IMG/VR virus record: IMGVR_UViG_3300033148_005667
Span: 1 to 33,245 of that record
Strand: one strand, 5' to 3'
Source of the DNA: a virus
DNA length: 33,245 bases
Shown: positions 1,018 through 33,196 of the stretch, piece by piece
Layout of the letters: every line of letters starts with the position of its first letter
Position numbering within the stretch: the first letter of the stretch is position 1
Made by a program: the position numbers and the translations under genes
The notes under the pieces: model-generated
Told to the model about the DNA's origin: nothing
The model's input: the letters and a program-made list of their open reading frames with translations, nothing else
Databases searched by the model: none

Positions 1018-1707
1018 TTACGCCTCGGCTTTCTTAGCCTTACTTTCAATAACAGAAGTATCTAACAAAGGTCCACACTTAGCAATAAACCGCCAGGCAC
1101 CCTCGGCCATCATTAATTCACTTCCAAGTTTACCCTTAAATCCTCTAGGGCCATTCGCCGGTATTCTTGCAATCTCAACACCATTTTTCCTAACGATAAA
1201 CGGGACTATTATACAGACCTTGCAAACTGCTTGACACTCATCAGTTCTGCCATTAGCTCCACACTCTCTTTTGCAGATACGTTTTTGATTGTTATACTCA
1301 AACTCGAATATCCCCTCGGTTCGTATTCTCTTAATAACGGATCTTTCTAGTAGATGGTTCTCAACTATCTGCCAGTTTTCAAAGTTGTTTTTTGGGGATT
1401 GTTTCGATTTTGCCTTAAGTACATCATAATCGATGTTGAAGTTTTTAAAGTATTCCCAAATAGCCATCTCAATATCATCATTCTTGCTATTGTGATACTC
1501 AGAGTGGTGTTCTCTACACATCGGGACACCATTGTCAGGATCATAGGCAGTCATAAAGCTACTAGAACCCTTTGAAAATACGTGATGAGGGTCGGTGGCT
1601 ATAATATCGCAAACAATGCAATTACCCCCATTTTTAGCCATTACTATTTTACTCCACTGTACGTGGAACTCTTTTTCTCTTTTTTCTGAAACTGCATTAG
1701 ATGCCAT
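1018..1707 (-). CDS. HNH endonuclease family protein (NinG/Ref-like position)
   Basis: The 229-residue protein has an HNH fold near the N-terminus: C30-x2-C33, H41-H42, N59, and C64-x2-H67-H68. This matches the zinc-stabilised beta-beta-alpha-metal nuclease. A second cysteine cluster around residues 145-165 (C-x3-C, then C-x3-C-x2-C) probably binds another zinc and is unusual for a plain homing HNH enzyme. It follows the replication genes and the cassette array, the same region where lambdoid phages carry ninG/rap-type recombination nucleases, so a role in DNA recombination or processing is plausible but inferred. The coding sequence starts at an ATG preceded by AT-rich sequence and a weak AAGGG further upstream. 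The HTH gene follows immediately. Confidence 0.8.
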   Translation of the reverse strand: MASNAVSEKREKEFHVQWSKIVMAKNGGNCIVCDIIATDPHHVFSKGSSSFMTAYDPDNGVPMCREHHSEYHNSKNDDIEMAIWEYFKNFNIDYDVLKAKSKQSPKNNFENWQIVENHLLERSVIKRIRTEGIFEFEYNNQKRICKRECGANGRTDECQAVCKVCIIVPFIVRKNGVEIARIPANGPRGFKGKLGSELMMAEGAWRFIAKCGPLLDTSVIESKAKKAEA

Positions 1708-1809
1708 TTTTTTATTTACCCTTTATTAAAATTCAATTTATTTTGAACTATTTTACCGCAAACTATAGACGGGCTGTTATGGGATGAGTACATTCTTTCT
1801 ATACCCTAT

Positions 1810-1863
1810 AATAACAACAGCGTGAGTGATGACCCGTGGGGCACACTACGCGCCATTTATATG
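1810..1863 (-). repeat. attC-like site 13 (last of the array, degenerate)
   Basis: On the minus strand the site starts with an ATATAAATGG-like left end and finishes with GTTGTTATT. Its arms GCGCGTAGTG and CACTCACGC pair as in the other sites. It lacks the clean TATAAC...GGTTATGA ends, so it may be inactive. It marks the leftward end of the cassette array. Between it and the HNH gene (1708-1809) there is AT-rich sequence with no gene. Confidence 0.55.
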
Positions 1864-1872
1864 TGATGATAC

Positions 1873-2313
1873 TTATTCCCATTCTGCTAGTCTAATAGCA
1901 TCAGCTTCTGTTTCTGCTATCAGATGCGGAACAATTAAACGACTGTCTTTAAACACCGTTTTTGTTAGTTTTTTCTGTATGAGATACCAAACTTTACAAA
2001 TATTATCCAGCACCCACACAAATTCATCTTCTGGAATATCTTCTACAGTAAACTCTTTCACTCTTAGATTTTCAAGTTCAATAACATATCCGTCACGGTT
2101 ACTGTCATCATCTCTAAGGTAACAAAATATCCAGCTTTTAGGTTTTGCAATAGATCCGCCAGAATGAGATGTTGTGGCAATCAATTTTTCTCTAAAATAA
2201 TCACCTTCCCCATCCCACGGTTCGTAATCATCGGCACAATCAAACCCAGTTATTCCACGATAATTAGGGTTGATAAATTCTGGTTTTAAGTATCCATTTT
2301 CAAATATTTCCAT
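1873..2313 (-). CDS. Cassette gene, unknown acidic protein
   Basis: The frame could extend further upstream, but that part would run through the preceding attC site. The ATG at 2313 has AGGAG eight bases before it and is chosen, giving 146 residues. The protein is acidic and soluble, with aromatic residues scattered through it (GFDCADDYEPWDGEGDYF near the N-terminus). It has no signal peptide or membrane segment. I recognise no family. It is the only gene in its cassette and its stop lies ten bases before the attC-like site at 1810-1863, the compact layout expected of an integron cassette. Confidence 0.75.
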   Translation of the reverse strand: MEIFENGYLKPEFINPNYRGITGFDCADDYEPWDGEGDYFREKLIATTSHSGGSIAKPKSWIFCYLRDDDSNRDGYVIELENLRVKEFTVEDIPEDEFVWVLDNICKVWYLIQKKLTKTVFKDSRLIVPHLIAETEADAIRLAEWE

Positions 2314-2335
2314 TTTGTACTCCTCTAAAATTATT

Positions 2336-2387
2336 TCATAACCAAGCGCGTTGTCGCGTCTTGGGCGCAACACGCAAGCGTTATATG
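2336..2387 (-). repeat. attC-like site 12
   Basis: Read on the minus strand: left end ATATAACGCTT, arm GCGTGTTG, short spacer, arm CAACGCGC, right end TTGGTTATGA. This is the R''-L''-L'-R' order of an attC site, with the arms pairing almost perfectly. At about 52 bases it is the shortest site of the set. The start of the next cassette follows the GTTATGA end. Confidence 0.85.
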
Positions 2388-2410
2388 TTGAATTTTCCCC
2401 GCCGTGAATT

Positions 2411-3118
2411 TTAGATAAAACTCAGTTGTGCGGTTTCTTCTTTAATTCGCTGTTGTGCTAAATTATAGTATTCTGTATCCAGCTCACAGCCTACCACTTT
2501 AAATCCTAAGTTGTGACAAGCGATCAAACTTGATGCACTACCAACCATAGTGTCTAAAATTTTGTCACCTTCTTTTGCATAATTCTGCAGTAGCCAAGCG
2601 TACAATTTTACCGGCTTTTGAGTTGGATGTATTCTTTTCTCGTTTAACGCCTTGTTTCCTTGTTGATAATTTGCCACGGTTGTATTTTTACTAGCACTAT
2701 TTCCTTGTATCATACCGCACCACATATAATTTACAACATCTGTTCTATTGTTAAACGAGCAATACGCAATCTCACACCCGTATTGGTCAGACTCTCCATT
2801 CATCTTATTCCATACTATGCGACCACCCTGCAGGTTTTTGAAATAGTTTACTCCCCAAATAATTTGATTTTTAGATACTCTCTTCAACTCTTCAAAATAC
2901 TCATCAGAAGGAATACTGTCATCCCAATCCTTTTGAGTATAGCTGTTCGTATTAGAAACCTGCAGGAATGTGCCGTTTTTCTGCTTACACATTTTAGGTT
3001 TTACGCTTTGCTTATCCGCACCTATTCCGTAAGGCGGATCAACTATTGCTAAATCAAAATGATTGTCGTCAAACTCTTTCATAAGTTCCATACAATCAAC
3101 ATTTCTAAAATCTATCAA
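2411..3118 (-). CDS. Cassette-borne DNA methyltransferase (N6-adenine/N4-cytosine type)
   Basis: This 235-residue protein transfers a methyl group from S-adenosylmethionine to an exocyclic amino group in DNA. Catalytic motif IV DPPY is at residues 27-30. HPTQKP is at 164-169, and an AdoMet-binding motif DTMVGSAS at 189-196 replaces the usual DPF-GSGT. Catalytic motif before AdoMet motif is the beta-class order. The start is a TTG at 3118 just after GGGGGAG; a later start would remove the conserved N-terminal strand. No restriction enzyme is adjacent, so it is a solitary methylase that could protect phage DNA or alter host methylation. It shares a cassette with the genes ending at 3141 and 3456. 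The recognition sequence cannot be read from the protein. Confidence 0.9.
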   Translation of the reverse strand: MIDFRNVDCMELMKEFDDNHFDLAIVDPPYGIGADKQSVKPKMCKQKNGTFLQVSNTNSYTQKDWDDSIPSDEYFEELKRVSKNQIIWGVNYFKNLQGGRIVWNKMNGESDQYGCEIAYCSFNNRTDVVNYMWCGMIQGNSASKNTTVANYQQGNKALNEKRIHPTQKPVKLYAWLLQNYAKEGDKILDTMVGSASSLIACHNLGFKVVGCELDTEYYNLAQQRIKEETAQLSFI

Positions 3119-3140
3119 ATCTCCCCCACTTTCCTAAATG

Positions 3141-3443
3141 TTATAGCGATATAACATTGTCACCATTTACATTATTTTGCACCAATGGGACATCTTTAGT
3201 AATTTGCAACAAATGCCGTATAGCATACCGCTCACCTGCATTTACAGCCCATCCCCAACCATAGCGAGCATATACCATAACTTCTGAAATGTGTTGACCT
3301 TTAATCGAGACAACCATTATTTCTTCTGGCACATCTTCCCTTTTTTGCTGCTCAGTAAAACCTTTAAAATCACCTTCTGGTTTAAATCTGAGAAGAGGTT
3401 CACCATAGTGTGCTACAATATCTTCATAAGTTTCTTTTTCCAT
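3141..3443 (-). CDS. Cassette gene, unknown 100-residue protein
   Basis: The start ATG has AGGAG upstream. The protein (MEKETYEDIVAHYGEPLLRF...) is soluble, with a central segment EEIMVVSIKGQHISEVMVYARYGWGWAVNAG rich in beta-forming residues. I recognise no family. It lies between the ribbon-helix-helix gene and the methyltransferase, with no attC site on either side, so the three genes travel as one cassette. Its last codons and stop form a perfect palindrome ATGTTATA-TCGC-TATAACAT, which resembles two attC core ends back to back. Confidence 0.7.
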   Translation of the reverse strand: MEKETYEDIVAHYGEPLLRFKPEGDFKGFTEQQKREDVPEEIMVVSIKGQHISEVMVYARYGWGWAVNAGERYAIRHLLQITKDVPLVQNNVNGDNVISL

Positions 3444-3455
3444 TTGTACTCCTAT

Positions 3456-3665
3456 TTAAAAAATCAACATCATCTGTTTTTTATTCCCTTTTTTATCCTC
3501 AATAAAAATAGAGCTACCTTTTTCTATCTCCGAACAAATAGTGTCAAGAATAGTAATTCCGCTAGTTACAATTCTTGTTCTATTTTCAACACCTGTATTC
3601 TTTTTAATATTTCCGATTTTATCTAGTGTTTCATCTGATAATCTCATTTGAACATTTTTACTCAT
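3456..3665 (-). CDS. Ribbon-helix-helix DNA-binding protein
   Basis: This 69-residue protein begins MSKNVQMRLSDETLDKIGNI, the pattern of an Arc/MetJ-type ribbon-helix-helix: a short strand, then a helix starting at SDETL. A second helix follows at about residues 27-46. Such proteins act as dimers and repress nearby promoters, often as antitoxins. AAGGT precedes the ATG. It is the first gene of a three-gene cassette ending with the methyltransferase, so it may regulate that cassette or be an antitoxin. The 100-residue partner does not resemble a toxin I know. Confidence 0.75.
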   Translation of the reverse strand: MSKNVQMRLSDETLDKIGNIKKNTGVENRTRIVTSGITILDTICSEIEKGSSIFIEDKKGNKKQMMLIF

Positions 3666-3677
3666 ACTTACCTTTCA

Positions 3678-3739
3678 TCATAACCGAGTGCGTTGGGCAG
3701 ACCACGATAAAGCTGTGGCTCCCCACTCAGTTGTTATTT
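3678..3739 (-). repeat. attC-like site 11
   Basis: On the minus strand it starts AAATAACAAC, has arms CTGAGTGGGG and CCAACGCACTC, and ends GGTTATGA. The centre AGACCACGATAAAGCTGTGG (plus strand) resembles that of site 2 at 7376. The following cassette starts directly after the GTTATGA end with its ribosome-binding site. Confidence 0.85.
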
Positions 3740-4115
3740 ACCACTTATTAATGATCTCGTTAATAGCACCAACCGCATTGCTTAAATTATCAATATCTTC
3801 ATCTGTTAATATTTTAATTTCGGGCAAATCTTTAAGCGGTAGAGTTTTCCCCGCCAAACCATCGGTTGAATCTCCAAGATGTTTACATTCTCCATCATTC
3901 AACCAAAAGTGAGAAACTGCAACAGTTGGGTGGTAGCTTGTCATCTTTATACTTGGTTTTAGGGTTGGCTTATCCCTGTCTCCATTCCAGCTCCAAGCAT
4001 TAGTATCTTTTCTAGCACCTTTTGTTATCACAGGCAATTCTATTGGTTGATCTTGTCCGTTCGGATGAAACTTTAAATAGGTTACACCGTTTTTCTCTCT
4101 AATTTCTGTTTTCAT
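3738..4115 (-). CDS. DUF6527-like cassette protein
   Basis: The 125-residue protein has WSWNGD (41-46), PTLKPSI (50-56), HFWL (69-72) and DSTDGLAG (82-89). This is the same series of motifs that characterises DUF6527 proteins, which are small, often phage- or plasmid-encoded and of unknown function. I name the family from memory of these motifs. The start ATG follows AGGAGG. The stop codon overlaps the left end of attC site 11, leaving almost no spare sequence. No signal peptide or membrane segment is seen. Confidence 0.8.
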   Translation of the reverse strand: MKTEIREKNGVTYLKFHPNGQDQPIELPVITKGARKDTNAWSWNGDRDKPTLKPSIKMTSYHPTVAVSHFWLNDGECKHLGDSTDGLAGKTLPLKDLPEIKILTDEDIDNLSNAVGAINEIINKW

Positions 4116-4131
4116 TTTGACCTCCTAAAAG

Positions 4132-4194
4132 TCATAACCAAATTGGTTTGGTGATGATGGCTGAAAAACGCCACCCACCAACAAACCGTTATAA
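4132..4194 (-). repeat. attC-like site 10
   Basis: On the minus strand it starts TTATAACGGTTTG, has arms TTGGTGGGTG and CATCATCACCAA, and ends TTTGGTTATGA. The plus-strand centre GATGATGGCTGAAAAACGCC resembles those of sites 4 and 7 (gatgatgg...aaaa...gcc). Confidence 0.9.
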
Positions 4195-4197
4195 AGA

Positions 4198-4665
4198 TTA
4201 ATCTATTTGTTCGTAGTTTTCATCACCGTCAACTTCCGGAGAACCAAAAGCAGAACACGGAGCGCACTTTTTTACTTCGCAACTAACTCCATCTTCACCA
4301 CACTTTTTGCAAGCGTCTTCCATTTCCTTAGTGCATTTTGGACAAGTCACTTCATTAAAATCTCCAGTGTCTGCAATAGCATCACCACCTGTACAATCTT
4401 TGCTTAATCCACGCCAACCGCAACTCGGACATTTTGCAGGCCAATAACCATTTAAATCTTCTTTAGTATACTTAACCGTCTCTTCTAAAGTGTCTGGTGC
4501 TATTTCACGATGGCAGCCGATTTCGTCCACAATCTTGTGTCTAACACAAGGCTTGTCAAAAACGGGCTCCCCTTTGCTCATATGGTAGCCATTTTCAGCA
4601 TAGTAATAACCAAACACTTCATTGCCAGTGTCAAGTTCTAAAGCTCTGTATTTCGATACATTCAT
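4198..4665 (-). CDS. Cysteine-rich zinc-ribbon cassette protein
   Basis: The protein is 155 residues from the ATG at 4665 (an ATG two codons earlier, at 4671, is also possible). The C-terminal half holds many CxxC pairs: CPSC, CPKC, CKKC and CAPC, plus isolated cysteines. This suggests two or three zinc ribbons. The N-terminal half (KYRALELDTGNEVFGYYYAE) looks like the small beta domain often seen in phage YopX-like proteins, but the match is weak. ACGAG precedes the start. It is the only gene in its cassette. A nucleic-acid or protein-binding role is possible. Confidence 0.75.
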   Translation of the reverse strand: MNVSKYRALELDTGNEVFGYYYAENGYHMSKGEPVFDKPCVRHKIVDEIGCHREIAPDTLEETVKYTKEDLNGYWPAKCPSCGWRGLSKDCTGGDAIADTGDFNEVTCPKCTKEMEDACKKCGEDGVSCEVKKCAPCSAFGSPEVDGDENYEQID

Positions 4666-4692
4666 AACCATTCTCGTTTCAATTTAAGTTTA

Positions 4693-4754
4693 TCATAACC
4701 ATAGCAGTTGGTGATGACCTCCCTACGGTCAGCACACCACTTAGGCTGTTATAA
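4693..4754 (-). repeat. attC-like site 9
   Basis: On the minus strand it starts CTTATAACAGCC, has arms TAAGTGGTGTG and TCATCACCAACTG, and ends TATGGTTATGA. The plus-strand centre GACCTCCCTACGGTCAGC resembles that of site 1 at 8117 (gacctccttcgtcagc). Confidence 0.9.
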
Positions 4755-4782
4755 GGGAGCTTTTTACACTCCCCGCCGTTAA

Positions 4783-5124
4783 TTATAGTCTTGAAAACTC
4801 AATGAAACAATCCACATCTTTATCATAATTATAATTTTCTCTAATGTCGTCTTGGTAGGACATAAAGTTATTTTCATTAATCCCCCCTAAAACATTAAGG
4901 GTACATCCCCTCATATAGTAACCACTACCAGTTTTATGTGGCACAGTAACCTTTACTTGATAAAGAATGTTTTTCTTTGGTATAAAAAATGTTAATATCC
5001 AAATAAGTTGAATCGCATTTATACTCATTGGAATTAATATATTTACCATTTGAAATAAAAACAGAGTCCAACAAAAAACACCTACAACAACTATCGCCAC
5101 ATTAAATACATTTCCTTTTTTCAT
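4783..5124 (-). CDS. Cassette-encoded membrane protein with two predicted helices
   Basis: This 113-residue protein has two hydrophobic stretches, at about residues 8-28 (NVAIVVVGVFCWTLFLFQMV) and 31-48. A hydrophilic C-terminal domain of about 65 residues follows, probably on one side of the inner membrane. I recognise no family. Its leader AGAAAGTAGAAAACAATG is nearly the same as that of the cassette starting at 6671, which also encodes a membrane protein. After the stop comes CGGCGGGG and then attC site 9. Confidence 0.75.
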   Translation of the reverse strand: MKKGNVFNVAIVVVGVFCWTLFLFQMVNILIPMSINAIQLIWILTFFIPKKNILYQVKVTVPHKTGSGYYMRGCTLNVLGGINENNFMSYQDDIRENYNYDKDVDCFIEFSRL

Positions 5125-5145
5125 TGTTTTCTACTTTCTACTATG

Positions 5146-5200
5146 GCATAACCACAGCAATTGGTGATGGCCTTGAGGCACACCATTTTTATGTTATATA
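5146..5200 (-). repeat. attC-like site 8
   Basis: On the minus strand it starts CTATATAACAT, has arms AATGGTGTG and CATCACCAATTG, and ends GTGGTTATGC. Together with the leader that follows it, the right half is almost identical to site 6 at 6693. Confidence 0.85.
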
Positions 5201-5219
5201 GAGCCTTTAAGCCCCGCCG

Positions 5220-5393
5220 TTATTTGCGACTTTTAAATTGTTCAAATGTAATTTCTTTTATATTTACTAAATATGTTTCAAAAGCTTTTATACATTCTTT
5301 TTTTGCTCTATCAAAACCTTCTTCGGATTTATCTGAAATAACATATCCACTAATCCACTCTCTTACATTTTCTGCATCATATCTACCCAGCAT
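5220..5393 (-). CDS. Small unknown cassette protein, third gene of the HTH cassette
   Basis: A 57-residue frame runs from the ATG at 5393 to the TAA at 5220. The protein (MLGRYDAENVREWISGYVIS...) is charged and helical in character. It overlaps the end of the HTH gene by 11 bases, and AAGGG within that gene's last codons serves as ribosome-binding site, so translation is coupled. The stop is followed at once by CGGCGGGG and then attC site 8. I recognise no family. As the partner of a small regulator it could be part of a toxin-antitoxin pair, but this is speculation. Confidence 0.7.
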   Translation of the reverse strand: MLGRYDAENVREWISGYVISDKSEEGFDRAKKECIKAFETYLVNIKEITFEQFKSRK

Positions 5394-5541
5394 CCCTTAC
5401 CACCTTTTCTATAATTGAATCAAATACAAATCGCTTTGAAACATACCAGATTTTTAAAGTACTAACTGGTATACCGCTTTTCTCAGAAAGTACAGTAAGG
5501 GATTTTACACCCTTACTCTTCACATATTTACTACAGTGCAT
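5383..5541 (-). CDS. Small helix-turn-helix cassette protein
   Basis: The ATG at 5541, two bases after the previous gene's stop (TAATATG) and with GAGG upstream, gives 52 residues. An upstream extension would overlap the previous gene and is not used. The segment SLTVLSEKSGIPVSTLKIWY has the shape of a classic HTH (helix, turn with SG, recognition helix with STLKIWY). The cassette has its own promoter with the palindrome ATATAGCTATAT over the -10 box, so this protein is the natural candidate for its regulator. It is flanked by two other small genes in the same cassette. Confidence 0.75.
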   Translation of the reverse strand: MHCSKYVKSKGVKSLTVLSEKSGIPVSTLKIWYVSKRFVFDSIIEKVVRDAG

Positions 5542-5542
5542 A

Positions 5543-5767
5543 TTAAGCCTCGTTTTTAGCCCTAAGAACAGGAGCCATTGAGTAATTGCCAAAAGGGAGA
5601 ATAAATTCTCCTTTATCGTCCGTTTTGACTCTACAGGATTTTACTTTTCCATCAAGCTCAATCTTCACGGTCTTTGCAGTTCTTCCAATAATTTCAATTG
5701 TGTTTTTACTATCAGAATTGTTTGCAAAGTAAAAAGAGTAGCTTTTGCTTGTTTCGAATAATTTCAT
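5543..5767 (-). CDS. Small cassette protein of a mobile-element type, unknown function
   Basis: This 74-residue protein has a central part IEIIGRTAKTVKIELDGKVKSCRVKTDDKG and a C-terminal part PFGNYSMAPVLRA. I recall short proteins with the pattern RTAKTVTI...GKVK...G.YSMAP..RA from many plasmids and prophages, without a known function. AAGGA precedes the ATG. It is first in a three-gene cassette and is preceded by a 109-base leader that holds a promoter. It could be an antirestriction-like or toxin-antitoxin component; the sequence does not tell. Confidence 0.75.
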   Translation of the reverse strand: MKLFETSKSYSFYFANNSDSKNTIEIIGRTAKTVKIELDGKVKSCRVKTDDKGEFILPFGNYSMAPVLRAKNEA

Positions 5768-5808
5768 TTTGTATCCTTTATTAGTAGTTTGTTTCTCTCA
5801 ACACTAAT

Positions 5809-5860
5809 AATATAGCTATATACGGGCTACAAAACAAGATAAAAGATGAAATATAGCTAT
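5809..5860 (-). promoter_or_regulatory. Cassette-borne promoter with operator-like palindromes
   Basis: On the minus strand TTGTTT (5837-5832), a 17-base spacer and TATATT (5814-5809) form a near-consensus sigma-70 promoter. The -10 box overlaps the perfect 12-bp palindrome ATATAGCTATAT (5810-5821). A second copy of AATATAGCTAT (5850-5860) lies just upstream of the -35 box. Two copies 41 bases apart, roughly four DNA turns, suit repression by a DNA-binding dimer, and the HTH protein in the same cassette is the obvious candidate. The other cassettes have short leaders and no visible promoter. Confidence 0.65.
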
Positions 5861-5876
5861 TTTTATTTAGAAGTGG

Positions 5877-5939
5877 CCATAACAAGGCGTTTGGTGATGA
5901 TGGGGAAAAGCACCCCACCCACCAACTTTGCGTTATATA
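5877..5939 (-). repeat. attC-like site 7
   Basis: On the minus strand it starts TATATAACGC, has arms TTGGTGGGTGGGG and CATCATCACCAA, and ends CCTTGTTATGG. The stop codon of the upstream gene lies inside the TATAAC left end. Confidence 0.9.
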
Positions 5940-6127
5940 GCATTATACTTTGGTTTCTGATAACCGTCTTGCTTCAATGCTGTTTTAAAGTTCTTCCTAG
6001 AACACTTAGAACAGCCATTTTTAATTGTAACTTTATTTAAAAACCCTTCACACCCCCAACAGAAGTGCTTAGTTGTTCCTGTGCGTTTAGATTTTTCCCT
6101 GTTTGAAGGGCTGTAGTCTTCATCCAT
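5933..6127 (-). CDS. Small zinc-finger-like cassette protein
   Basis: The 64-residue basic protein carries CWGC (residues 23-26) and CSKC (39-42), two CxxC knuckles about a dozen residues apart, as in small zinc ribbons. Its ATG directly follows the TAA of the previous gene (TAAATG) and has no clear ribosome-binding site, so it depends on translational coupling. Its stop codon is part of the left end of attC site 7. A nucleic-acid-binding role is likely but not shown. Confidence 0.75.
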   Translation of the reverse strand: MDEDYSPSNREKSKRTGTTKHFCWGCEGFLNKVTIKNGCSKCSRKNFKTALKQDGYQKPKYNAI

Positions 6128-6319
6128 TTACATATCCATATTATCACGGCTAACAGGTTGCCAAATAATCTCTCTAGTGTCAAGTCGAACTTGCTTTTGC
6201 ATATAAACAAGAGTTCCAATATTTGACTCAATAAAAACACCGTACTTTTCAGCCCAATCCATATCTTGTATAGTTGGTTTTCTAAATACTTTTTCTTTTA
6301 ATTCTACAGTGTAGCTCAT
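6128..6319 (-). CDS. Small unknown cassette protein
   Basis: This 63-residue protein (MSYTVELKEKVFRKPTIQDM...) has a good AAGGAG ribosome-binding site. It looks like a small beta-rich soluble protein and I recognise no family. It is the first of two genes in its cassette, directly abutting the zinc-finger gene. Confidence 0.7.
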   Translation of the reverse strand: MSYTVELKEKVFRKPTIQDMDWAEKYGVFIESNIGTLVYMQKQVRLDTREIIWQPVSRDNMDM

Positions 6320-6336
6320 ATCTATTCTCCTTTAAA

Positions 6337-6399
6337 ACATAACCAAACGGTTGGTGATGTCTTCGGCTTGAGCCTCGCTCACCACCTACACCGTTATAT
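6337..6399 (-). repeat. attC-like site 6b (between the cassettes starting at 6319 and 6671)
   Basis: On the minus strand it starts CATATAACGGTG, has arms TAGGTGGTGAGC and ACATCACCAACCG, and ends TTTGGTTATGT. Its centre CTTCGGCTTGAGCCTC (plus strand) is identical over 16 bases to the centre of the site at 6693, which points to a common ancestor. Confidence 0.9.
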
Positions 6400-6422
6400 G
6401 TGATACTGTCACACGGGTACCG

Positions 6423-6671
6423 TTATTTATCACACCAACATTTTTGTGAATGGCTAAAATTATAGGCACCAGTTCTTATATAGTCGTGTCCTTCAATAGT
6501 TTTGTGTTGTCTAAAAACTATGTAGATCATAACGACCACAAACGCTAAAAACAATGTTGCAGGAACAGCAACACACAACCAGTCAAAGAGGTTTTCGCCT
6601 ACAACACCAAGTCTCTGAAAGTAACCGCCTACTGTTTCTTTCTCGGTTAGTAATTTGTCCCAGTCTTTCAT
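6423..6671 (-). CDS. Cassette-encoded single-span membrane protein
   Basis: The 82-residue protein has a hydrophobic helix at about residues 33-53 (VAVPATLFLAFVVVMIYIVF) and a C-terminal tail ending in CWCDK. GGAG precedes the ATG. It is the sole gene of its cassette. The leader between the attC end and the start is nearly the same as in the 5124 cassette. I recognise no family; small membrane proteins from mobile elements can act in superinfection exclusion, but there is no direct sign of this here. Confidence 0.75.
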   Translation of the reverse strand: MKDWDKLLTEKETVGGYFQRLGVVGENLFDWLCVAVPATLFLAFVVVMIYIVFRQHKTIEGHDYIRTGAYNFSHSQKCWCDK

Positions 6672-6692
6672 GTCTCCTACTTTCTAGCTATG

Positions 6693-6754
6693 GCATAACC
6701 ACAGCAATTGGTGATGACTTCGGCTTGAGCCTCACCCACCATTTTATTGTTATT
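6693..6754 (-). repeat. attC-like site 6
   Basis: On the minus strand it starts AAATAACAATAA, has arms AATGGTGGGTGAGG and TCATCACCAATTG, and ends GTGGTTATGC. It shares its centre with the site at 6337 and its right half with the site at 5146. Confidence 0.9.
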
Positions 6755-7055
6755 TATTGAATGCCAATTTAAAGCACTCTTCTAGTTTTTTCTCTGATAG
6801 AGTTTTTAAACCTGTAAAAAGCCTAGTACTCCACTCTCTTTGATGTTTTTTAGTATCGACAACTGCAACTTTCACAGTGCCCTCGTCTAAATCTCTCGGA
6901 AAACCACAGTATGTTTCATTTTCCCAGTGGAAATTTAAAACGAGATTATCAATTCTGATAGAAAAACCCTCCGCAAAAGATGTTGACGGGTGGCGTTCCC
7001 CTTTTGAATATGGAAGTATTTGAAATTTAGTTCTTAAAAAACTTTGTCTTGTCAT
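6750..7055 (-). CDS. Unknown cassette protein, 101 residues
   Basis: The ATG has AGAGGTG upstream. The protein is soluble, basic at the N-terminus (MTRQSFLRTKFQILPY) and aromatic-rich in the middle (LVLNFHWENETYCGFPRDLD), and its C-terminus is helical. No known motif is seen. The stop codon overlaps the left end of the attC site at 6693. It is the only gene in its cassette. Confidence 0.7.
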   Translation of the reverse strand: MTRQSFLRTKFQILPYSKGERHPSTSFAEGFSIRIDNLVLNFHWENETYCGFPRDLDEGTVKVAVVDTKKHQREWSTRLFTGLKTLSEKKLEECFKLAFNK

Positions 7056-7076
7056 CTTACACCTCTCTAAAGTTTG

Positions 7077-7140
7077 TCATAACCGAATCAATTGGTGATG
7101 ATGGCAAAAAAGCACGCCACCCACCATTTCGGCATTATAT
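7077..7140 (-). repeat. attC-like site 4
   Basis: On the minus strand it starts ATATAATGCCG, has arms AATGGTGGGTGGC and CATCATCACCAATTG, and ends TTCGGTTATGA. The left core is TATAAT instead of TATAAC, as in the site at 8117. The upstream gene stops inside it. Confidence 0.9.
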
Positions 7141-7359
7141 CGCTTTTTCTATTATCGTATCAATTTTATCTTTTGTAATGCTCCCAAAATCGGTTAACTC
7201 TACCCATCCTTTATCATTTGAAAATTCTACAATATTTGCATCAACTTCATATCCACTACCAAAGCCATCAATCTCAACATTGTGTTTTACTAGCAACTCT
7301 TTTAAGTCCTCGAAAAACGGTTTTAGACTCTCGCTATTTGAAAAGTTAATTTCACTCAT
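7135..7359 (-). CDS. Small acidic cassette protein
   Basis: The ATG at 7359, preceded by AAGGAG, gives 74 residues. A longer frame exists, but its first 20 codons would come from the preceding attC site, so they are dropped. The protein (MSEINFSNSESLKPFFEDLK...) is acidic, with a helix, then a beta-rich centre, then a C-terminal helix. I recognise no family. Confidence 0.75.
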   Translation of the reverse strand: MSEINFSNSESLKPFFEDLKELLVKHNVEIDGFGSGYEVDANIVEFSNDKGWVELTDFGSITKDKIDTIIEKAI

Positions 7360-7375
7360 CTTTATCTCCTTAAAT

Positions 7376-7437
7376 TCATAACCGGGCGTGTGCATTTGGC
7401 AGCGATAAAGCTGCTGCAAACGACTCGGTTGTTAGTT
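7376..7437 (-). repeat. attC-like site 3
   Basis: On the minus strand it starts AACTAACAACCGAG, has arms TCGTTTGCAGC and GCCAAATGCAC, and ends CCCGGTTATGA. Here the left end CTAAC fits the classical RYYYAAC core better than the other sites do. The centre resembles that of the site at 3678. Confidence 0.85.
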
Positions 7438-7446
7438 CCCCGCCGA

Positions 7447-7671
7447 TTATTTTACGAATGAACCACTTTTATCTTGATTGAAATCTAAGTTGATTAACTC
7501 ATTTGCCAAATTTTTCAACTCATCTGGCGTAATTGATGCTGCTGGGTTTTCGCCTTCTTCTACCTCTGAATCAATAACCTCAACATCAATTTGATTATGT
7601 ATGTGGTTTATAAAAACCTTAAACCCATATTCATCATTTCCAATTGAAAAAACTTCTGATCTGTGTCTCAT
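7447..7671 (-). CDS. Small acidic cassette protein
   Basis: From the ATG at 7671 the product is 74 residues (MRHRSEVFSIGNDEYGFKVF...). An earlier in-frame ATG at 7704 lies within the GTTATG end of the attC site and has no ribosome-binding site, so the later start, behind ACGAGAG, is preferred. The protein is acidic (DSEVEEGE in the middle) and unrecognised. After its stop come CGGCGGGG and attC site 3. The leader resembles that of the 4665 cassette. Confidence 0.7.
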   Translation of the reverse strand: MRHRSEVFSIGNDEYGFKVFINHIHNQIDVEVIDSEVEEGENPAASITPDELKNLANELINLDFNQDKSGSFVK

Positions 7672-7700
7672 AATACTCTCGTTTCTTTGAATTAAGTTTG

Positions 7701-7763
7701 ACATAACCGAAGCAGTTGGTTATGTCTGCGCCTTGGGGATTGCAAACCATCTACAGCGTTACA
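7701..7763 (-). repeat. attC-like site 2
   Basis: On the minus strand it starts TTGTAACGCTG, has arms GATGGTTTGC and ACATAACCAACTGC, and ends TTCGGTTATGT. The ASCH gene's stop codon is part of the left core. Confidence 0.85.
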
Positions 7764-8094
7764 AGTTCACCCAAATCACCGCACCTTGAGGGTGATCATA
7801 CTTCTTTGGCTTTTTATATCTCTTTGCATCAGTAATAAACCAACCCCAGCACCATTTTTCAAGTAGAGATAAATCTTCCACTTTGTGAAACCTTTGAAAG
7901 TTTTTTCTCTCTTCTAGCGAGAATTTAATACTGTCACGAATGTTTACTTCACCAATAATCAATCCTGTTCCTGCTTCAATTACACCAACAGTTCCGCGAA
8001 TTTTGGTACTTGTCGATCTCATTTCAAAAGTTTTAATCCCATCAACGATCATTCCTGCATAAGGGATTCGAACTATTAGCGCCTTTTTAATCAC
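7759..8094 (-). CDS. ASCH-domain protein
   Basis: This 111-residue protein has the ASCH signature: a first strand ALIVRIPYAGMIVDG followed by GIKTFEMRS (19-27), the GxKxxExR pattern, then a beta-barrel strand GTVGVIEAGTGLIIGEV. ASCH domains share the PUA fold and are thought to bind RNA; some are amidohydrolases or nucleases acting on modified nucleosides. The start is GTG at 8094 with AAGGAA upstream. It is the sole gene of its cassette and its stop lies in the attC site at 7701. Confidence 0.88.
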   Translation of the reverse strand: MIKKALIVRIPYAGMIVDGIKTFEMRSTSTKIRGTVGVIEAGTGLIIGEVNIRDSIKFSLEERKNFQRFHKVEDLSLLEKWCWGWFITDAKRYKKPKKYDHPQGAVIWVNL

Positions 8095-8106
8095 CCTTGT
8101 TCCTTT

Positions 8107-8301
8107 CTAGTTTTGACCATAACCAATATGTTGGTTATGACCTCCTTCGTCAGCCCACCACATCGGCATTATATAGAATGTGCAATAAATGCACTTTGAG
8201 CCATAATCATTTAATACGTAGAACAAACTCCAACCCAGCCAAACCACAAAGAATAGATTTACTACTGCTACCCATAAAACCATATCCATTCTAGCGACCA
8301 C
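8107..8301 (-). CDS. Small membrane protein of the first cassette, frame runs through attC
   Basis: A strongly hydrophobic helix lies near the N-terminus (VLWVAVVNLFFVVWLGWSLF), followed by a short tail with a CIYC pair. The start is uncertain: GTG at 8301 or ATG at 8289, with no clear ribosome-binding site. The frame has no stop before the attC site at 8117-8174. It reads through the whole site and stops at 8107, in the leader of the next cassette, so the last 20 or so residues come from attC sequence. It may be a real small membrane protein with a neighbour-dependent C-terminus, or an accidental frame. Confidence 0.45.
   Translation of the reverse strand: MVARMDMVLWVAVVNLFFVVWLGWSLFYVLNDYGSKCIYCTFYIMPMWWADEGGHNQHIGYGQN
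8117..8174 (-). repeat. attC-like site 1 (first of the array)
   Basis: On the minus strand it starts TATATAATGCCG, has arms ATGTGGTGGGC and ATAACCAACATA, and ends TTGGTTATGG. It closes the first cassette after the replication genes. Confidence 0.85.
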
Positions 8302-8329
8302 TACAATTATCCGCAGGGCAATACTCCCC

Positions 8330-8377
8330 TTATAAATATTCTAAGGTTTTAATTGATGTTTTGAAATAATTATTCAT
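8330..8377 (-). CDS. Possible 15-codon leader peptide
   Basis: AAGGTGG followed nine bases later by ATG opens a 15-residue frame (MNNYFKTSIKTLEYL) that stops just before AAGGGGAG. It lies between the T-run of the large hairpin (8403-8489) and the first cassette gene. A short translated leader here could couple ribosomes to the cassette genes. The start codon lies inside GTTATGA (8380-8374), the same heptamer that ends the attC sites, so the spot may also be the leading recombination site of the array. With so short a frame, chance is possible. Confidence 0.35.
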   Translation of the reverse strand: MNNYFKTSIKTLEYL

Positions 8378-8402
8378 AACTTTTACCACCTTAAACGAAA
8401 AA

Positions 8403-8489
8403 AGACCATTGAGTTTATCAGAATGATACTGGAGGCAAATCCAACGCGGGTCATAATCGCGCTTTACATTCTGATAAACCTAATGGTCT
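8403..8489 (-). promoter_or_regulatory. Long 23-bp-stem hairpin with inner hairpin and T-run (terminator or structured leader)
   Basis: Arms 8403-8425 and 8467-8489 match as inverted repeats over 21 of 23 bases. Inside, CGCG (8445-8448) pairs with CGCG (8458-8461) around a nine-base loop, and TGGA/TCCA can form a second small hairpin, giving a three-way junction. On the minus strand the 3' arm runs into TTTTTTCG and then the ribosome-binding site of the short frame at 8377. It separates the replication genes from the cassette array and is the sister of the element at 528-622. Between it and the gene ending at 8576 there are about 85 AT-rich bases with no clear feature. Confidence 0.7.
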
Positions 8490-8575
8490 AATCGAGAGTT
8501 TTATTTTATGACCTAATTTCAAACAATCCACTTTTGCGAGTAGTAGACAGGTTTAATATACTATGATCCTGTTTG

Positions 8576-8965: not shown

Positions 8966-9955
8966 CTACCAGCTAGCTACTTGTTGTTGATACATAGCAC
9001 CAAGATCTGCAAGAGTATTATCAATTTTTGGTTGAGATTCAAGCTCTTCTGCTTTTCGTTCGTTATATTCTTTAATGCGAGCAGCTTCTGCACGATCTTC
9101 TTCTTCGCGGTTTTTCTTTCTAAGTGATAAAAAACTTAAATTCTGTTGAGATGAAGGTTTCCCCCCGCCGACAGTTAGAGCAAGAGGTATTGGCTTATTA
9201 CAATCATCCTCAGACCCTAATCTACTCAATAATACTCCTAAACCAACGTTTTTGCCCTTTGCCATCTCATTTAGCAGTTCTTGGTGATAATATTTAATTG
9301 AGTGAACTGTGTGCTTATTAGAGAGCTTTCTTAGTTCATTAATCTTTTTAGGTGATTTTATTTTATTTAAAAGAGAGCGAAGCAAAATAAAACCCTCCTC
9401 CCCCTCATCTTTTTGTTTTTCTTCCTGGAGTTTTATAGGAGATTTTATAGAGGTTTTTACACAGGAGGTTTTCTTTTTAGTTTTAGGTTCTCTTATGGTG
9501 TCCGATTTTTCGGATAGTAAGGTGTCCGATTTTTCGGATAGTAATGTGTCCGATTTTTCGGATAGGAGTGTAAGCTGTTGAGGTTGAGGTGTTTTAACTC
9601 TTTTCATATTTTTTAAAGGAGATTTAGAGTGAGCGGAATGCTGACCAATTAAAGCAGCGGCTACAGTAGATATATTTATATCATAGGTGAACTTATACAC
9701 CATAGTGCTGTTAACCTTCCTACCTGTTGCTCTAATAAGCCCTATTTGCTCAATCCATTCTCGTGCAGCAATCACAACTTCTTTACTGAGACAAGTAGAC
9801 TCAGCAATTTGTTTGTAGGATCGCCAAAAAGTGTTATCGTCCATACTCGTATAGGCTGCCATATAAACAAGAACTGTTTTTACAGAAGCTTTATTTATCC
9901 CTTTTCTGGATGGGATTTTTAGGAGGTTTGCAAATTTCCAAGCGTTTGTGTTCAT
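8966..9955 (-). CDS. Replication initiator protein, lambda O-like layout
   Basis: The 329-residue protein starts with a winged-helix/HTH domain (about 1-95, including SYKQIAESTCLSKEVVIAAREWIEQIGLI), as in phage replication protein O-type initiators that bind the origin. A linker at about 129-153 contains LLSEKSDT three times in tandem, encoded by the 24-bp iterons. A basic stretch (EPKTKKKTSC...) and a charged C-terminal half follow, with a long helix near the end (SLRKKNREEEDRAEAARIKE). In phages of this kind the initiator binds repeats inside its own gene and recruits the helicase through a loader; the next gene is the candidate loader. AAAGG lies upstream of the ATG. Confidence 0.75.
   Translation of the reverse strand: MNTNAWKFANLLKIPSRKGINKASVKTVLVYMAAYTSMDDNTFWRSYKQIAESTCLSKEVVIAAREWIEQIGLIRATGRKVNSTMVYKFTYDINISTVAAALIGQHSAHSKSPLKNMKRVKTPQPQQLTLLSEKSDTLLSEKSDTLLSEKSDTIREPKTKKKTSCVKTSIKSPIKLQEEKQKDEGEEGFILLRSLLNKIKSPKKINELRKLSNKHTVHSIKYYHQELLNEMAKGKNVGLGVLLSRLGSEDDCNKPIPLALTVGGGKPSSQQNLSFLSLRKKNREEEDRAEAARIKEYNERKAEELESQPKIDNTLADLGAMYQQQVASW
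9497..9568. repeat. Three 24-bp iterons, putative replication origin inside the initiator gene
   Basis: The unit GGTGTCCGATTTTTCGGATA plus four bases occurs three times without gaps (9497-9520, 9521-9544, 9545-9568), with changes only at the ends. Each holds the palindrome TCCGA-TTTT-TCGGA. On the downstream side of the gene (about 9405-9490) the minus strand is AT-rich and strongly purine-biased, a suitable unwinding element. Palindromic iterons followed by AT-rich sequence within the initiator gene is the architecture of the lambda origin. Confidence 0.75.
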
Positions 9956-12475: not shown

Positions 12476-15400
12476 TTAATTGCCTAAATATGTTGTTGCT
12501 CCTCTGTATTCACCCACGGGCAAGAGGTTATAATATACCTGTATGTTACCGTCTGTTTTTACCCTTATCATATACATAACATTAGTGCCGGTATTCATTA
12601 CAAAAAACGGATTATTGGCGTACTCAGGCCAAAAAGAGGTCTCAGAGATAGTTAATATCGTAGTAAGGTGAGAAGCCTCTGCTGTGACCTCAAAAGATAG
12701 ATCAAGAGCATTTGTCTTGTACCTCTTCTTAATGTAGGAATTTACACCCCCACTTGTCGGGGTAGCGTAGGAGGTACCTGCGACGGTTCCTGTTTTGAGA
12801 CTTAATAACCCCTCAACCGCTCGAACTGGAGTAAACGCATCTGGTTCGTCTAGGATGTCTTGTGTTAGGTCGGTTGTTGTTGCTCCTGTCATTGTTGGGT
12901 CGGTTAGGGTTTGGTTTGTAGAAGTTCCGTTGTCTTTCCTCAACCTCTCCCCGAACAGGTCGCCTTTTAAATCTCTAGTAACTAATTGAACGTGATCGTA
13001 ACGTGATGCAGATATAAAAGTAACATTTTCATTTGTAAGTATCTCAACCTGAATATTAGATATAACAACAGAGCGATGAATCCCAACACAAACATCGTTA
13101 ACTGCACCGTCTGTTTCTGCTGATCTATTATTAAAAACTGTATCAATGTATGGAGTTGCAGTATTTGTTGCAAGTCCACCAGACACAAAAGTCCAATAAG
13201 TATCACCAAACGGTGAATCATTAAGCGTTAGGACTGTTTCAGAAATTACACCGCTTGGTGCTGTCGCCTTAACCCGTACAATTACACTACCTACGCCTTT
13301 TAACCCATCACCGTTTGCAGGCATTTTAAATAGTGTCATATATTCATCTGCTAAACTTGCATCGGCAGAGGCGTTTATCCAAGAGCCATTATAAATAGTT
13401 TGCCAAGCATCTTCAATATTTGCTTTTGTTATGTCTTGTGGAGTTTTCCACCCAAACTCTTGAACTGCTGTAGCCCCATTTACCAATGTAATAGAGGATA
13501 GCTTCGTCAACTCTTCGTACGTTACATTAACATTGTCAAATGTAATATCTCCACTAATTTTTGATATATATATTTTTGGTGTAGTAACACCTGAAGACAC
13601 TAAAACACCATTCGTAGTATCAATCCTGTTAATCTCTGTCCACGCTCCACTTGCTCCTGCCCGCTCATCAATAGCGAGAATTTTGCCAGAACTAATAGAT
13701 ACATTATGTATGGATATAGAACCCAGATATCCAGTTCCTGCACCAAACATAAGGGAGGTGTCGTCAACAATACTAATGGGGCTGTCAGTGGTGTTTTTAG
13801 ACTGCATTATTAGATCCATCCCGTAAGGGATAGTTGTAATTCCACTAATTGTATTGTCAGGGGAGGCGTTCATTGTGGACTTACCAACTGCAACTCCAGC
13901 TTGCAATTCTGCTTGGTTTGAGAATGTTCCAACTGTCACGTCTGTTTTATCTGCTTTTAAATCAACTAAAACTTCTACTTGTCCAAGAGTTGCGGCACCT
14001 TGTGGAGTTGTTGCATCTCCTAAATTTGCGGGCTTTAATCCGCCTGCATCTGGATTAATTCCAAGAATATCGGCAAAACCTCCCGCAACAGCACCGCCCG
14101 CCGTTGAGCCGATTGACCCCCACATATCGGTTTGCCGTATTATTGCTTCGTCTAGGTTAGTTGCTCCCCCTCTAACAATAACAATGGCACACAGGGCTGT
14201 TATTCCGATTAGTGTAGGCATAACAGTAAAAGTATCATCACCATTGGAAAGTGCTTCTTTTGCCTCGGATACGCTACCCCACTCGTTTTGCGCTAACTGC
14301 CAAACAACAGGGAATATTTGGTTATTTGCATTGTCTGCAACTCCCGCAACAGGGATGAACACACGATAGTTATACCATTTCTGGGAACTAACGCCCGTTA
14401 TTACTCCGCTATTATCCCACTCTGTTTTATTAACAGTTGCGCTGTCAGCCGTTCCAAGCGTGGTGGTTCTGTCAGTAATTGTGTAGGCAAGCGACTCTGT
14501 AAGAGGGTGAATGGTTTTGATATCGGGGGCTTTTAGGTTTGAGTCCCCACTAATTCCGTTTGATAAAAACCTGCCTGAACTCACAGATAGGGTGTTTGAG
14601 TTTTCAACAGCATCGATAACAACACCCTCTTTAATAACATTAAAGAAATCAAGAAGTGTGCTGAGCCTTGTTGATGGATTTTGTCCAACCGTCACCCAAT
14701 TCTCAACGGCAGAAATTGTACCATCACCATAAGGATGTAACACAATAGCTACCCTGGGGTGAGTCATTTGGTGCTCTGGAGTGGTTATCAGATTTAGGTG
14801 TTGCTCCATCAGTTTAGTATCAGGGTTAAACCCAAGTATGGTAAAACCTTTTGTATTAAGCCCGTCAATAGTAATCCCCTCTTGACCACCATACCTAGAA
14901 GTAACACTAACAACAGGAGCATCAGGGTTATCAATACCGCATACACCAGCCTCAAAACTTACTTGTGTAGTATTATCCTGAGATATTTCAAAACCTTTTA
15001 AAATTGAGGTTGAGCGTGATAGAGCATCTTGTAACTTGTCTCTGGCATCTTGAAATATTTCATACTCATCACCAACTGCTTTAATCCAGAAACTCTCAGA
15101 CTGTCCATAAATAACTTGAGTTGTAAGCCCACCTATCTTCTGACCACTTACAGTTGTAACAACTACATCAGAGGTTAAGATTGAACTCTTTTTCAGAAAT
15201 TGGCACTCAAAAGGTGTTCCATCAACAGCATCAGGGACTACCACTGGTATATCTGCGCCACCCTCAGTGTTTACTATTGGATACGAAACCCTATTTTCAG
15301 CCGTAAACCCAGCTGTTTTTACAGGAGAAGTAGTCCAGCTTTGGATGAGATCAAGCTGTTCCTGAATATTACTATCAATCCCCTCAAGAGCACTTAAGTC

Positions 15401-15664
15401 AGTATCTGTAATTTCAGAAGCATCAGCTTTGCCACCGCTACTAGTAACCAACACCCGACCATCAGGAAGATTTGCAGAGGTAGAAGAATCAACCATAACC
15501 TTAAACTTCTCACCTAAATGGTTTGAGTAGAACATCCTTTTTAAGTTGTTCTCTAAAAGCAAAGAAAGAATAGGCATATCTGAAACCATAGTATTATAGT
15601 CATAGTTTCTAAGATAATAGCTAAACGGTTCGGTTCCTGCTACTTCGTGGGTATTAGCTGCCAT
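12476..15664 (-). CDS. Tail fibre / receptor-binding protein
   Basis: At 1062 residues this is the largest gene in the window, and the last of the tail genes. The N-terminal about 120 residues should attach to the tail tip. The rest is rich in S, T, G, N and V with short strand-like segments, typical of trimeric beta fibres. Around 560-600 the segment GDATTPQGAATLGQVEVL followed by KADKTDV resembles the repeats that join fibre shafts. The C-terminus (about 960-1062) probably holds the receptor-binding tip. The N-terminal part shares NRVSYP with the upstream hub-like protein. The start ATG has a ribosome-binding site (GGAGAGTA) in the end of the upstream gene. Confidence 0.8.
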   Translation of the reverse strand: MAANTHEVAGTEPFSYYLRNYDYNTMVSDMPILSLLLENNLKRMFYSNHLGEKFKVMVDSSTSANLPDGRVLVTSSGGKADASEITDTDLSALEGIDSNIQEQLDLIQSWTTSPVKTAGFTAENRVSYPIVNTEGGADIPVVVPDAVDGTPFECQFLKKSSILTSDVVVTTVSGQKIGGLTTQVIYGQSESFWIKAVGDEYEIFQDARDKLQDALSRSTSILKGFEISQDNTTQVSFEAGVCGIDNPDAPVVSVTSRYGGQEGITIDGLNTKGFTILGFNPDTKLMEQHLNLITTPEHQMTHPRVAIVLHPYGDGTISAVENWVTVGQNPSTRLSTLLDFFNVIKEGVVIDAVENSNTLSVSSGRFLSNGISGDSNLKAPDIKTIHPLTESLAYTITDRTTTLGTADSATVNKTEWDNSGVITGVSSQKWYNYRVFIPVAGVADNANNQIFPVVWQLAQNEWGSVSEAKEALSNGDDTFTVMPTLIGITALCAIVIVRGGATNLDEAIIRQTDMWGSIGSTAGGAVAGGFADILGINPDAGGLKPANLGDATTPQGAATLGQVEVLVDLKADKTDVTVGTFSNQAELQAGVAVGKSTMNASPDNTISGITTIPYGMDLIMQSKNTTDSPISIVDDTSLMFGAGTGYLGSISIHNVSISSGKILAIDERAGASGAWTEINRIDTTNGVLVSSGVTTPKIYISKISGDITFDNVNVTYEELTKLSSITLVNGATAVQEFGWKTPQDITKANIEDAWQTIYNGSWINASADASLADEYMTLFKMPANGDGLKGVGSVIVRVKATAPSGVISETVLTLNDSPFGDTYWTFVSGGLATNTATPYIDTVFNNRSAETDGAVNDVCVGIHRSVVISNIQVEILTNENVTFISASRYDHVQLVTRDLKGDLFGERLRKDNGTSTNQTLTDPTMTGATTTDLTQDILDEPDAFTPVRAVEGLLSLKTGTVAGTSYATPTSGGVNSYIKKRYKTNALDLSFEVTAEASHLTTILTISETSFWPEYANNPFFVMNTGTNVMYMIRVKTDGNIQVYYNLLPVGEYRGATTYLGN

Positions 15665-15667
15665 ATT

Positions 15668-17533: not shown

Positions 17534-17901
17534 ACTTCTTCAAACTCCACAGATATCCCCTCCCAAAGTCCACCATAAACGGCAAGGAGTCTATCCGCGC
17601 TAAAAGGAGATCCCAATACTGTATATGATTTAGTTTCTAATAGATGAGTGACCTCAAGAGTAAACTCACCACCCAATTGAAACAGATAATCCATTCTATC
17701 TTTTAACTCTTGGTCACTAGTTTCGTAGGTTAAAAGAAAAGCTTTCTTGGTTGCAATATTATCTTCACGCAGTTTACCAGAAGCGGCACGAGCACGGCGT
17801 TTTAATCCATCAATCCACCGCTCGTTTAACTTTCTACCAAACATAGAGAGCTCTTGAACATCTCCCGGTGGCCCTAGTTTAATTAAATTTGGATTTGGCA
17901 T
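17530..17901 (-). CDS. Distal tail-type small protein
   Basis: The 123-residue protein directly follows the tape measure gene (start and stop overlap by one base). It looks like a beta-rich protein with a helix LNERWIDGLKRRARAASGKL in the N-terminal third. Position and size fit a small distal tail or tail-tip adaptor protein linking the tube end to the hub, as between H and the tip genes of lambdoid phages. No specific motif is seen. Confidence 0.6.
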   Translation of the reverse strand: MPNPNLIKLGPPGDVQELSMFGRKLNERWIDGLKRRARAASGKLREDNIATKKAFLLTYETSDQELKDRMDYLFQLGGEFTLEVTHLLETKSYTVLGSPFSADRLLAVYGGLWEGISVEFEEV

Positions 17902-32687: not shown

Positions 32688-33196
32688 TTTGCCATTCCGA
32701 ATTTAGAAAGTTCATCCTCTTCTGGTTCAGTTTTTTTTGATAATGGAACTGCACTAATCCGTGAACGTGGATCTAACATTAATTTTTCTCCGAGTTGCTT
32801 GAGAAGAGTACTTTTCTTATTAATCATTCCGTCAATTTTTAAAAGCATCATCATAACTTCATATGACTTCATTTTATCCAGACCACGCTTTTTTGCGTTA
32901 TCCTTTTTAAAGTCTTTCCGAGAACTGGTTAAATCTTGATACTCAGAATAAGCTGAACAGTATTGTTCAATTATTCCAGTATCTGCATTAGTAACATAGT
33001 CATTTTCTGCATTAATTTTGATAATGTGATTCCACATTTTCAACGCCACTTTGTCAGATTTCACCGAAGAGGGAGGAGTGAATTTTTTATCACCTAACTT
33101 CACTTCATTAGCGGCTCTAGATTTAAGATCATCTTTGGATCTCTTGCTCTTTCCACCTAAAATTAAATCAAAAGTAGCTTTGCGTTTTCTACCCAT
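32684..33196 (-). CDS. terS: Terminase small subunit, P27-like
   Basis: This 170-residue basic protein, directly before TerL, has the P27-family pattern: an N-terminal basic part, KVALKMWNHIIKINAENDYV and DTGIIEQYCSAYSEYQDL in the middle, and LGEKLMLDPRSRISAVPLSK near the C-terminus (compare L.L.P.sR..l). It recognises the packaging site on viral DNA. The start at 33196 overlaps the end of an upstream frame. Confidence 0.88.
   Translation of the reverse strand: MGRKRKATFDLILGGKSKRSKDDLKSRAANEVKLGDKKFTPPSSVKSDKVALKMWNHIIKINAENDYVTNADTGIIEQYCSAYSEYQDLTSSRKDFKKDNAKKRGLDKMKSYEVMMMLLKIDGMINKKSTLLKQLGEKLMLDPRSRISAVPLSKKTEPEEDELSKFGMAK

Follow-up and report, generated by a model that had tools for sequence, protein, structure and literature searches.

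An array of attC-like sites in an uncultured phage

The window analysed here is an entire IMG/VR virus record (IMGVR_UViG_3300033148_005667; 33,245 bases, possibly incomplete), a siphophage-like contig from an uncultured phage in which portal, major head, major tail, tape-measure and O-like replication genes were found. Between the O-like replication initiation gene (8966..9955, minus strand; PHROG 391, 4.2e-9) and a gene for an HNH endonuclease-like protein (1018..1707, minus strand; PHROG 1271, 1.1e-5) lie 13 repeated attC-like sites of ~51-66 bases, running in the same orientation from 8173 down to 1810 and alternating with small minus-strand genes. A first-pass annotation, made from the letters alone, had described this region as an attC-type array without an integrase, placed between replication and nuclease genes and built of about 13 sites that all face one way and delimit compact cassettes. 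The sites, the two flanking genes and a negative integron integrase (IntI) search of the record bear out that description.

We scored the sites with two covariance models. R1 was built from 21 gammaproteobacterial attC sites, taken from integron arrays of gammaproteobacterial genomes, and holds bacterial sites only. R2 describes the phage subtype and was built from 18 seed sites, of which the window supplied 11; it is thus not independent for 11 of the 12 window sites that it scores (35-61 bits). Starting from the replication gene, and with all sites on the minus strand, sites 1 (8116..8173; R2 39.6 bits) and 2 (7700..7763; 53.2 bits) have just a short palindrome match to R1. They are followed by sites 3 (7375..7436; 45.7 bits), 4 (7076..7139; 60.9 bits) and 5 (6692..6754; 60.9 bits), and by site 6 (6336..6398; 61.5 bits), which gives the top R1 match (plus strand, 17.1 bits) and is 84% identical to a site at 32739 in virus record G008. 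Site 7 (5876..5937) is matched by both models, and the site and its leader are common to G002 and G008, with homology from ATAAC on. R1 matches on the plus strand were found at sites 8 (5145..5198; R2 52.5 bits), 10 (4131..4193; 52.9 bits), 11 (3677..3738; 51.6 bits) and 12 (2335..2385; R2 35.7 bits, R1 16.8 bits). Site 9 (4692..4753) is matched by both models, and its homology to G010 and G294 starts at the TATAAC box. The terminal site 13 (1810..1866), recognised from sequence and alignments, has a degenerate box at its TATAAC end.

A covariance search of the kind proposed in the first-pass annotation was carried out over the 33 kb with R1, with filters off, full scoring and matches at E<10 listed. 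It gave 13 matches, every one on nine of the array sites and none elsewhere; the full-length matches divide into seven on the plus and one on the minus strand. The significance rests on the placement of these matches, no site being significant singly. A strict sequence pattern likewise matched 6 window sites and none in 100 shuffles.

The cassette open reading frames (ORFs) belong to the minus strand, and a ribosome-binding site follows closely after GTTATG. Beginning at the HNH side, they comprise an unknown ORF of 166 amino acids (aa) (1873..2373; distant relatives in G004 and G008), an N6/N4 DNA methyltransferase ORF (2411..3118; Pfam PF01555, 2.8e-18; homologues in the G009 array, 52%, and in G008, 46%) with two small ORFs of 100 and 69 aa in the same cassette (3141..3665), a DUF6527 ORF (3738..4115; PF20137, 4.8e-9), and unknown ORFs of 157 aa (4198..4671) and 113 aa (4783..5124). 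Next come three overlapping small ORFs behind a ~110-bp AT-rich leader (5220..5767), two ORFs of 64 and 63 aa (5933..6319), single ORFs of 82 aa (6423..6671) and 101 aa (6750..7055), a 94-aa open frame whose real start is probably a later ATG (7135..7419), an 85-aa ORF (7447..7704) and an ASCH-domain ORF (7759..8094; PF04266, 4.3e-6), which has a 37% identical relative beside the G008 array. PADLOC matched the methyltransferase alone. Judging by family names, the cargo (methyltransferase, ASCH, DUF6527 and unknowns) probably consists of small host-takeover or anti-restriction genes.

Site anatomy and gene polarity

The sites share the order TATAAC, 7 or 8 unpaired bases, TGGTG, one base, G, C/T, a variable terminal loop, G/A, a bulge, C, two bases, CACCA, a spacer and GTTATG. 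The arms are paired in 95.8% of cells, and their covariation score was reached by none of 500 shuffles. A G-C pair is invariant and the adjoining pair covaries (11 C-G, 6 U-A, 1 U-G; n = 18 seed sites), with an extra base (column 43) between the partners of these two pairs in 18/18 seed sites, in addition to a 1x2 loop. The sites thus have the imperfect inverted L''/L' arms around a variable loop, and the extrahelical bases on one arm, that characterise attC. Measured against RYYYAAC...GTTRRRY, the AAC and GTT cores of the R boxes are near invariant and the outer bases (ATA, TATG) are off strict RRRY. With 13 such sites in tandem on one strand, the array exceeds the two that define a cluster of attC sites lacking an integron integrase (CALIN).

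The bulge sits on the arm adjoining GTTATG. Bacterial attC sites carry their extra bases on the arm adjoining R'', as is also evident in our alignment of bacterial attC (A1). Because the bulge arm adjoins GTTATG, this box is read as R'' and TATAAC as R', the cleavage box, which makes plus the attC top strand and leaves the genes on the bottom strand. The R1 matches in the window fit this assignment, and at phage sites in other records the matches of this model are again on the strand opposite to R2; DNA folding energies did not discriminate between strands. The single-strand hairpin that recombines is predicted to form from the strand with the sense of the genes, the minus strand of the window, with cleavage at TATAAC.

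Polarity was also scored from the longest open frame between adjacent sites, which is on the R2 strand, that is inverted relative to attC, in 70/74 viral intervals. Sampled bacterial arrays scored with R1 as a control were canonical by 42:8. A canonical cassette has its attC 3' of the gene and the gene on the attC top strand; the phage cassettes have neither, by intervals and by the breakpoints described below. The first-pass annotation had implied that GTTATGA is the recombining end and that each site follows its gene. That part of it is reversed by the extrahelical base, the R1 strand and the crossover point, which place R' at the TATAAC end, and sequence comparison indicates that the sites precede their genes.

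Distribution of the subtype in phages and bacteria

The pattern of the window sites was found in ten stretches of viral contigs and a relaxed pattern in twenty. Altogether 14 virus records, including the window, carry the subtype, with 4-13 sites each except for one with a single site, and R2 finds ~100 sites in virus records. Two of these records, G005 and G007, are related to the window phage through their structural genes (in G005 the terminase is 59% identical; tail proteins ~31-86%), and a third, G008, has its replication gene in common with it. Alignment searches with the replication and tail proteins recover just these records, all of them array-bearing. The terminal site is conserved (86-97%) at the array ends of otherwise divergent phages (window 1757-1862, G008 31599-31706, G007 ~8318-8372), and in these three phages it occupies a position equivalent to that of attI. 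Terminal repeats are present in G002 (imperfect, 230 bp) and G004 (exact, 114 bp), which suggests that these are near-complete phage genomes with arrays.

In bacteria the subtype is rare. A pattern scan of the GTDB bacterial genomes of 85,000 species gave one true case, the metagenome-assembled genome (MAG) bin_47 (L003/L126 and L207); the other four of five matches (L001, L002, L004 and L005) were discarded as chance matches inside coding DNA. No IntI above cut-off was found in bin_47, and an R2 search of 168 genomes of its phylum, which was tried as a host phylum by way of this MAG, gave no further match. The longest frame in bin_47 is opposite to the R2 strand in 3/3 intervals of L003, which is the canonical polarity, and the second contig is canonical too. 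When applied to bacterial arrays, R2 gave only two weak sites, both oriented against the bacterial attC.

We also searched IMG/VR for IntI and found 462 stretches encoding relatives of it. Many of the best 80 carry attC arrays, and it is these 80 that were examined, so that a more divergent IntI may have escaped. R1 finds 161 attC in IntI-bearing viral contigs, and R2 finds no site of the phage subtype in the 80 examined (1.09 Mb). Records classed as viral thus often hold complete integrons, and some of these records may be misclassified bacterial contigs.

Recombination between array-bearing phages

A comparison of the sites that flank homologous proteins on either side yielded too few pairs to be decisive, and ends of nucleotide alignments were used instead. 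Similarity of downstream flanks alone was not accepted as proof, since ribosome-binding sites inflate it. We counted alignment ends between array-bearing records within 6 nucleotides (nt) of a box and compared them with 300 sets of shifted sites. At TATAAC there are 47 ends against 1.1 expected (null maximum 9 in 300), a count that includes both alignment partners and many alignments barely longer than the site; at GTTATG there are 2, which is the chance level (1.1 expected). A count by eye, restricted to alignments of at least 120 nt, gave ~11 junctions at TATAAC and one at GTTATG.

Individual cassettes tell the same story. One cassette (X), present in both G005 and G292, is shared from its TATAAC to the next TATAAC, past the stop codon and up to the box, and some sites with 97-98% identity between two phages are preceded by unrelated flanks. 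Neither this comparison of related phages nor the covariance search, both of them proposed as tests of the array, refuted it: R1 matches fall on the sites, and the relatives differ in cassette content, with breaks at sites. By sequence, these alignments show that cassettes are exchanged between phages; the first-pass annotation had proposed that they may also be exchanged with a host integron.

The clearest event is a recent rearrangement between the close relatives G009 and G292, which are 98-100% identical across long stretches. The two are collinear over 4226-7369 of G009 and 15530-18671 of G292, and from 7364 on G009 matches G292 from 32554 downward, an inversion of ~13 kb. At the junction G292 reads GAATT-GTTAT-CTATC and CCGT-GTTAT-TCTCT, and G009 reads GAATT-GTTAT-TCTCT. 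The crossover sequence GTTAT that they have in common is the R' box of two sites pointing in opposite directions, which recombination of attC with attC predicts. Because the junction lies inside this box, the sites evidently recombine in nature. The attC crossover, at G|TT of R', thus has its counterpart in the relatives in the GTTAT junction and the 47 breaks, the exact phosphodiester being beyond the resolution of the alignments. The arrays of G009 and G292 also diverge as far as the TATAAC box of their last site, and directly behind this box their identity is 99%. At its far end (G009 19745 / G292 19199; L028, L110) the inverted block stops at AGGAGTTATG, a GTTAT outside recognised sites, which is possibly a secondary recombination site.

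These junctions bear on two other explanations of the array. If cassettes of a host integron had been captured in canonical form, as the first-pass annotation proposed, gene then attC with R' at GTTATGA, the R boxes would look as they do, resembling Vibrio-like TATAAC...GTTATG ends, and the genes would span from box to box; the phage TJE1, whose CALIN has canonical polarity, shows that such arrays exist, and one shared junction is at GTTATG. The excess of alignment ends at TATAAC and the inversion junction within that box already contradict this explanation, the bulge and the bacterial model R1 indicate the opposite strand, and we regard it as quite improbable. The sites might instead be RNA or terminator leader hairpins, with conserved leaders as the places where homologous or illegitimate recombination swaps the genes. 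They do form hairpins and lie in 5' leaders directly before ribosome-binding sites, and modular exchange could proceed through such leaders. Against this, an independently built attC model picks the sites and nothing else in 33 kb, the invariant bulge stands beside a covarying pair, the breaks cluster near one box rather than across the site, the inversion partners have just GTTAT in common at the junction, and in the bacterial MAG the same subtype follows genes instead of preceding them. A leader-hairpin origin is highly improbable.

We therefore favour, with good though not full confidence, the reading of the region as a phage-lineage integron-type cassette array (CALIN) whose genes are inverted and whose mobile unit would be an attC plus the gene or genes downstream of it. 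Several observations count against this reading. R1 scores on individual window sites are weak (7-17 bits, compared with ~20-70 for bacterial attC), the two extrahelical bases are closer together than those of classical attC, and the R boxes depart from strict GTTRRRY. Neither IntI nor attI was found alongside this attC subtype. One strong junction, between G007 and G292, is at the GTTATG end; just one of the two inversion ends is at attC sites, in contigs that are metagenomic; and few junctions involve the window phage, the inversion having been found in more distant array-bearing phages.

Candidate recombinases

A complete integron includes an intI gene. Searches with TIGR02249 and PF00589 were negative over the whole 33-kb record, so the window has the array without a nearby integrase that is expected of a CALIN, and no IntI was found in the nine other array-bearing records searched. 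We lean towards a host IntI, acting in trans, as the driver of exchange. An integron integrase supplied by the host would exchange cassettes while the DNA is single-stranded, and phage transcription would read the cassettes as an operon. The inverted cassettes would then form a pool traded among phages, and on entering a host integron they would lie antisense to the integron promoter.

A phage-encoded tyrosine recombinase could take the place of host IntI, with the sites and their polarity unchanged. G005, G007 and G008 each encode a tyrosine recombinase of ~390 aa within or beside the array, and the near absence of the attC subtype from bacterial genomes, together with its absence from the 80 IntI-bearing viral contigs, would fit such an enzyme. 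The three enzymes belong to ordinary phage integrase families (PF00589, SAM-like N-domains) and match the IntI model weakly (26-31 bits against a cut-off of 265), and for the majority of array-bearing records, among them G009 and G292 with the inversion, no tyrosine recombinase was detected. We consider this alternative unlikely. A broader proposal, that the phage lineage keeps a cassette economy of its own, with a phage-associated attC subtype, inverted genes, cassettes traded among phages by a recombinase other than a known IntI, and phage and bacterial pools separated by orientation, is conceivable but doubtful.

Other features of the record

The window terminase is ~50% identical to terminases of Geobacillus phages. 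No nucleotide match to the window was found among 50,697 isolated phages, single-protein searches with the replication or HNH protein found no relatives, and an Rfam search returned no family. A 150-nt non-coding element (8380-8530, minus strand) separates the array from the replication genes. In this element, which is conserved in G005 and G008, a long hairpin (-40 kcal/mol, z -3.65) is followed by a T run; it is possibly a terminator, or an unrecognised RNA or origin element. Behind the tail genes, a 1062-aa ORF (12476-15664) is without a match in PHROG and Pfam searches, and the alignment with its relative in G005 spans just 167 aa.

Relation to known integrons and CALINs

The integron sites known so far from phages were scattered and may have been captured by accident. 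In the present related phages they are a standing feature, with sequence evidence of gene swaps and even of a 13-kb inversion through them. The inverted polarity leads to specific predictions: the identity of the recombining strand and box, and the silence of any phage cassette on its entry into a host integron. The arrays point to a rapid route of phage-phage exchange for host-takeover or anti-defence genes and raise the question of which recombinase drives it.

On sequence grounds, the array is of a known kind, in a variant of which we found no description in the open-access literature searched: shared by related phages, recombining and with inverted genes. Like bacterial sedentary chromosomal integrons and CALINs, it has R''/R'-like boxes, L''/L' arms, an extrahelical base, a variable loop and compact cassettes of one to three genes. 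Unlike them, the phage arrays have their genes on the attC bottom strand (70:4, compared with 42:8 on the top strand in bacteria), and no intI or attI was found with them.

Phage CALINs, for example those of TJE1, PH101 and P12002L, have been published by Qi et al. 2023 (PMC9892861), who, in the sections cited here, report that five of six phage attC sites tested recombined with IntI1 and attI1. As described there, those CALINs are likewise attC clusters without an integrase in phages, with methyltransferase cargo. The window array differs from them in being longer (13 sites) and in its attC subtype, which recurs across related uncultured phages, and our comparison adds sequence evidence of natural phage-phage recombination and of inverted polarity. 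The same sections make no comment on the polarity of genes relative to attC; in PH101 (KR534323, ~75.9-78.0 kb; L104 25919-27987) we find four attC matches, all on the plus strand, where the annotated genes are on the minus strand and thus inverted. An anomaly of orientation is also known from the reverse integrons of Treponema (PMC3607928), in which intI is reversed relative to the array, whereas in the phages described here it is the cassette genes that are reversed relative to attC.

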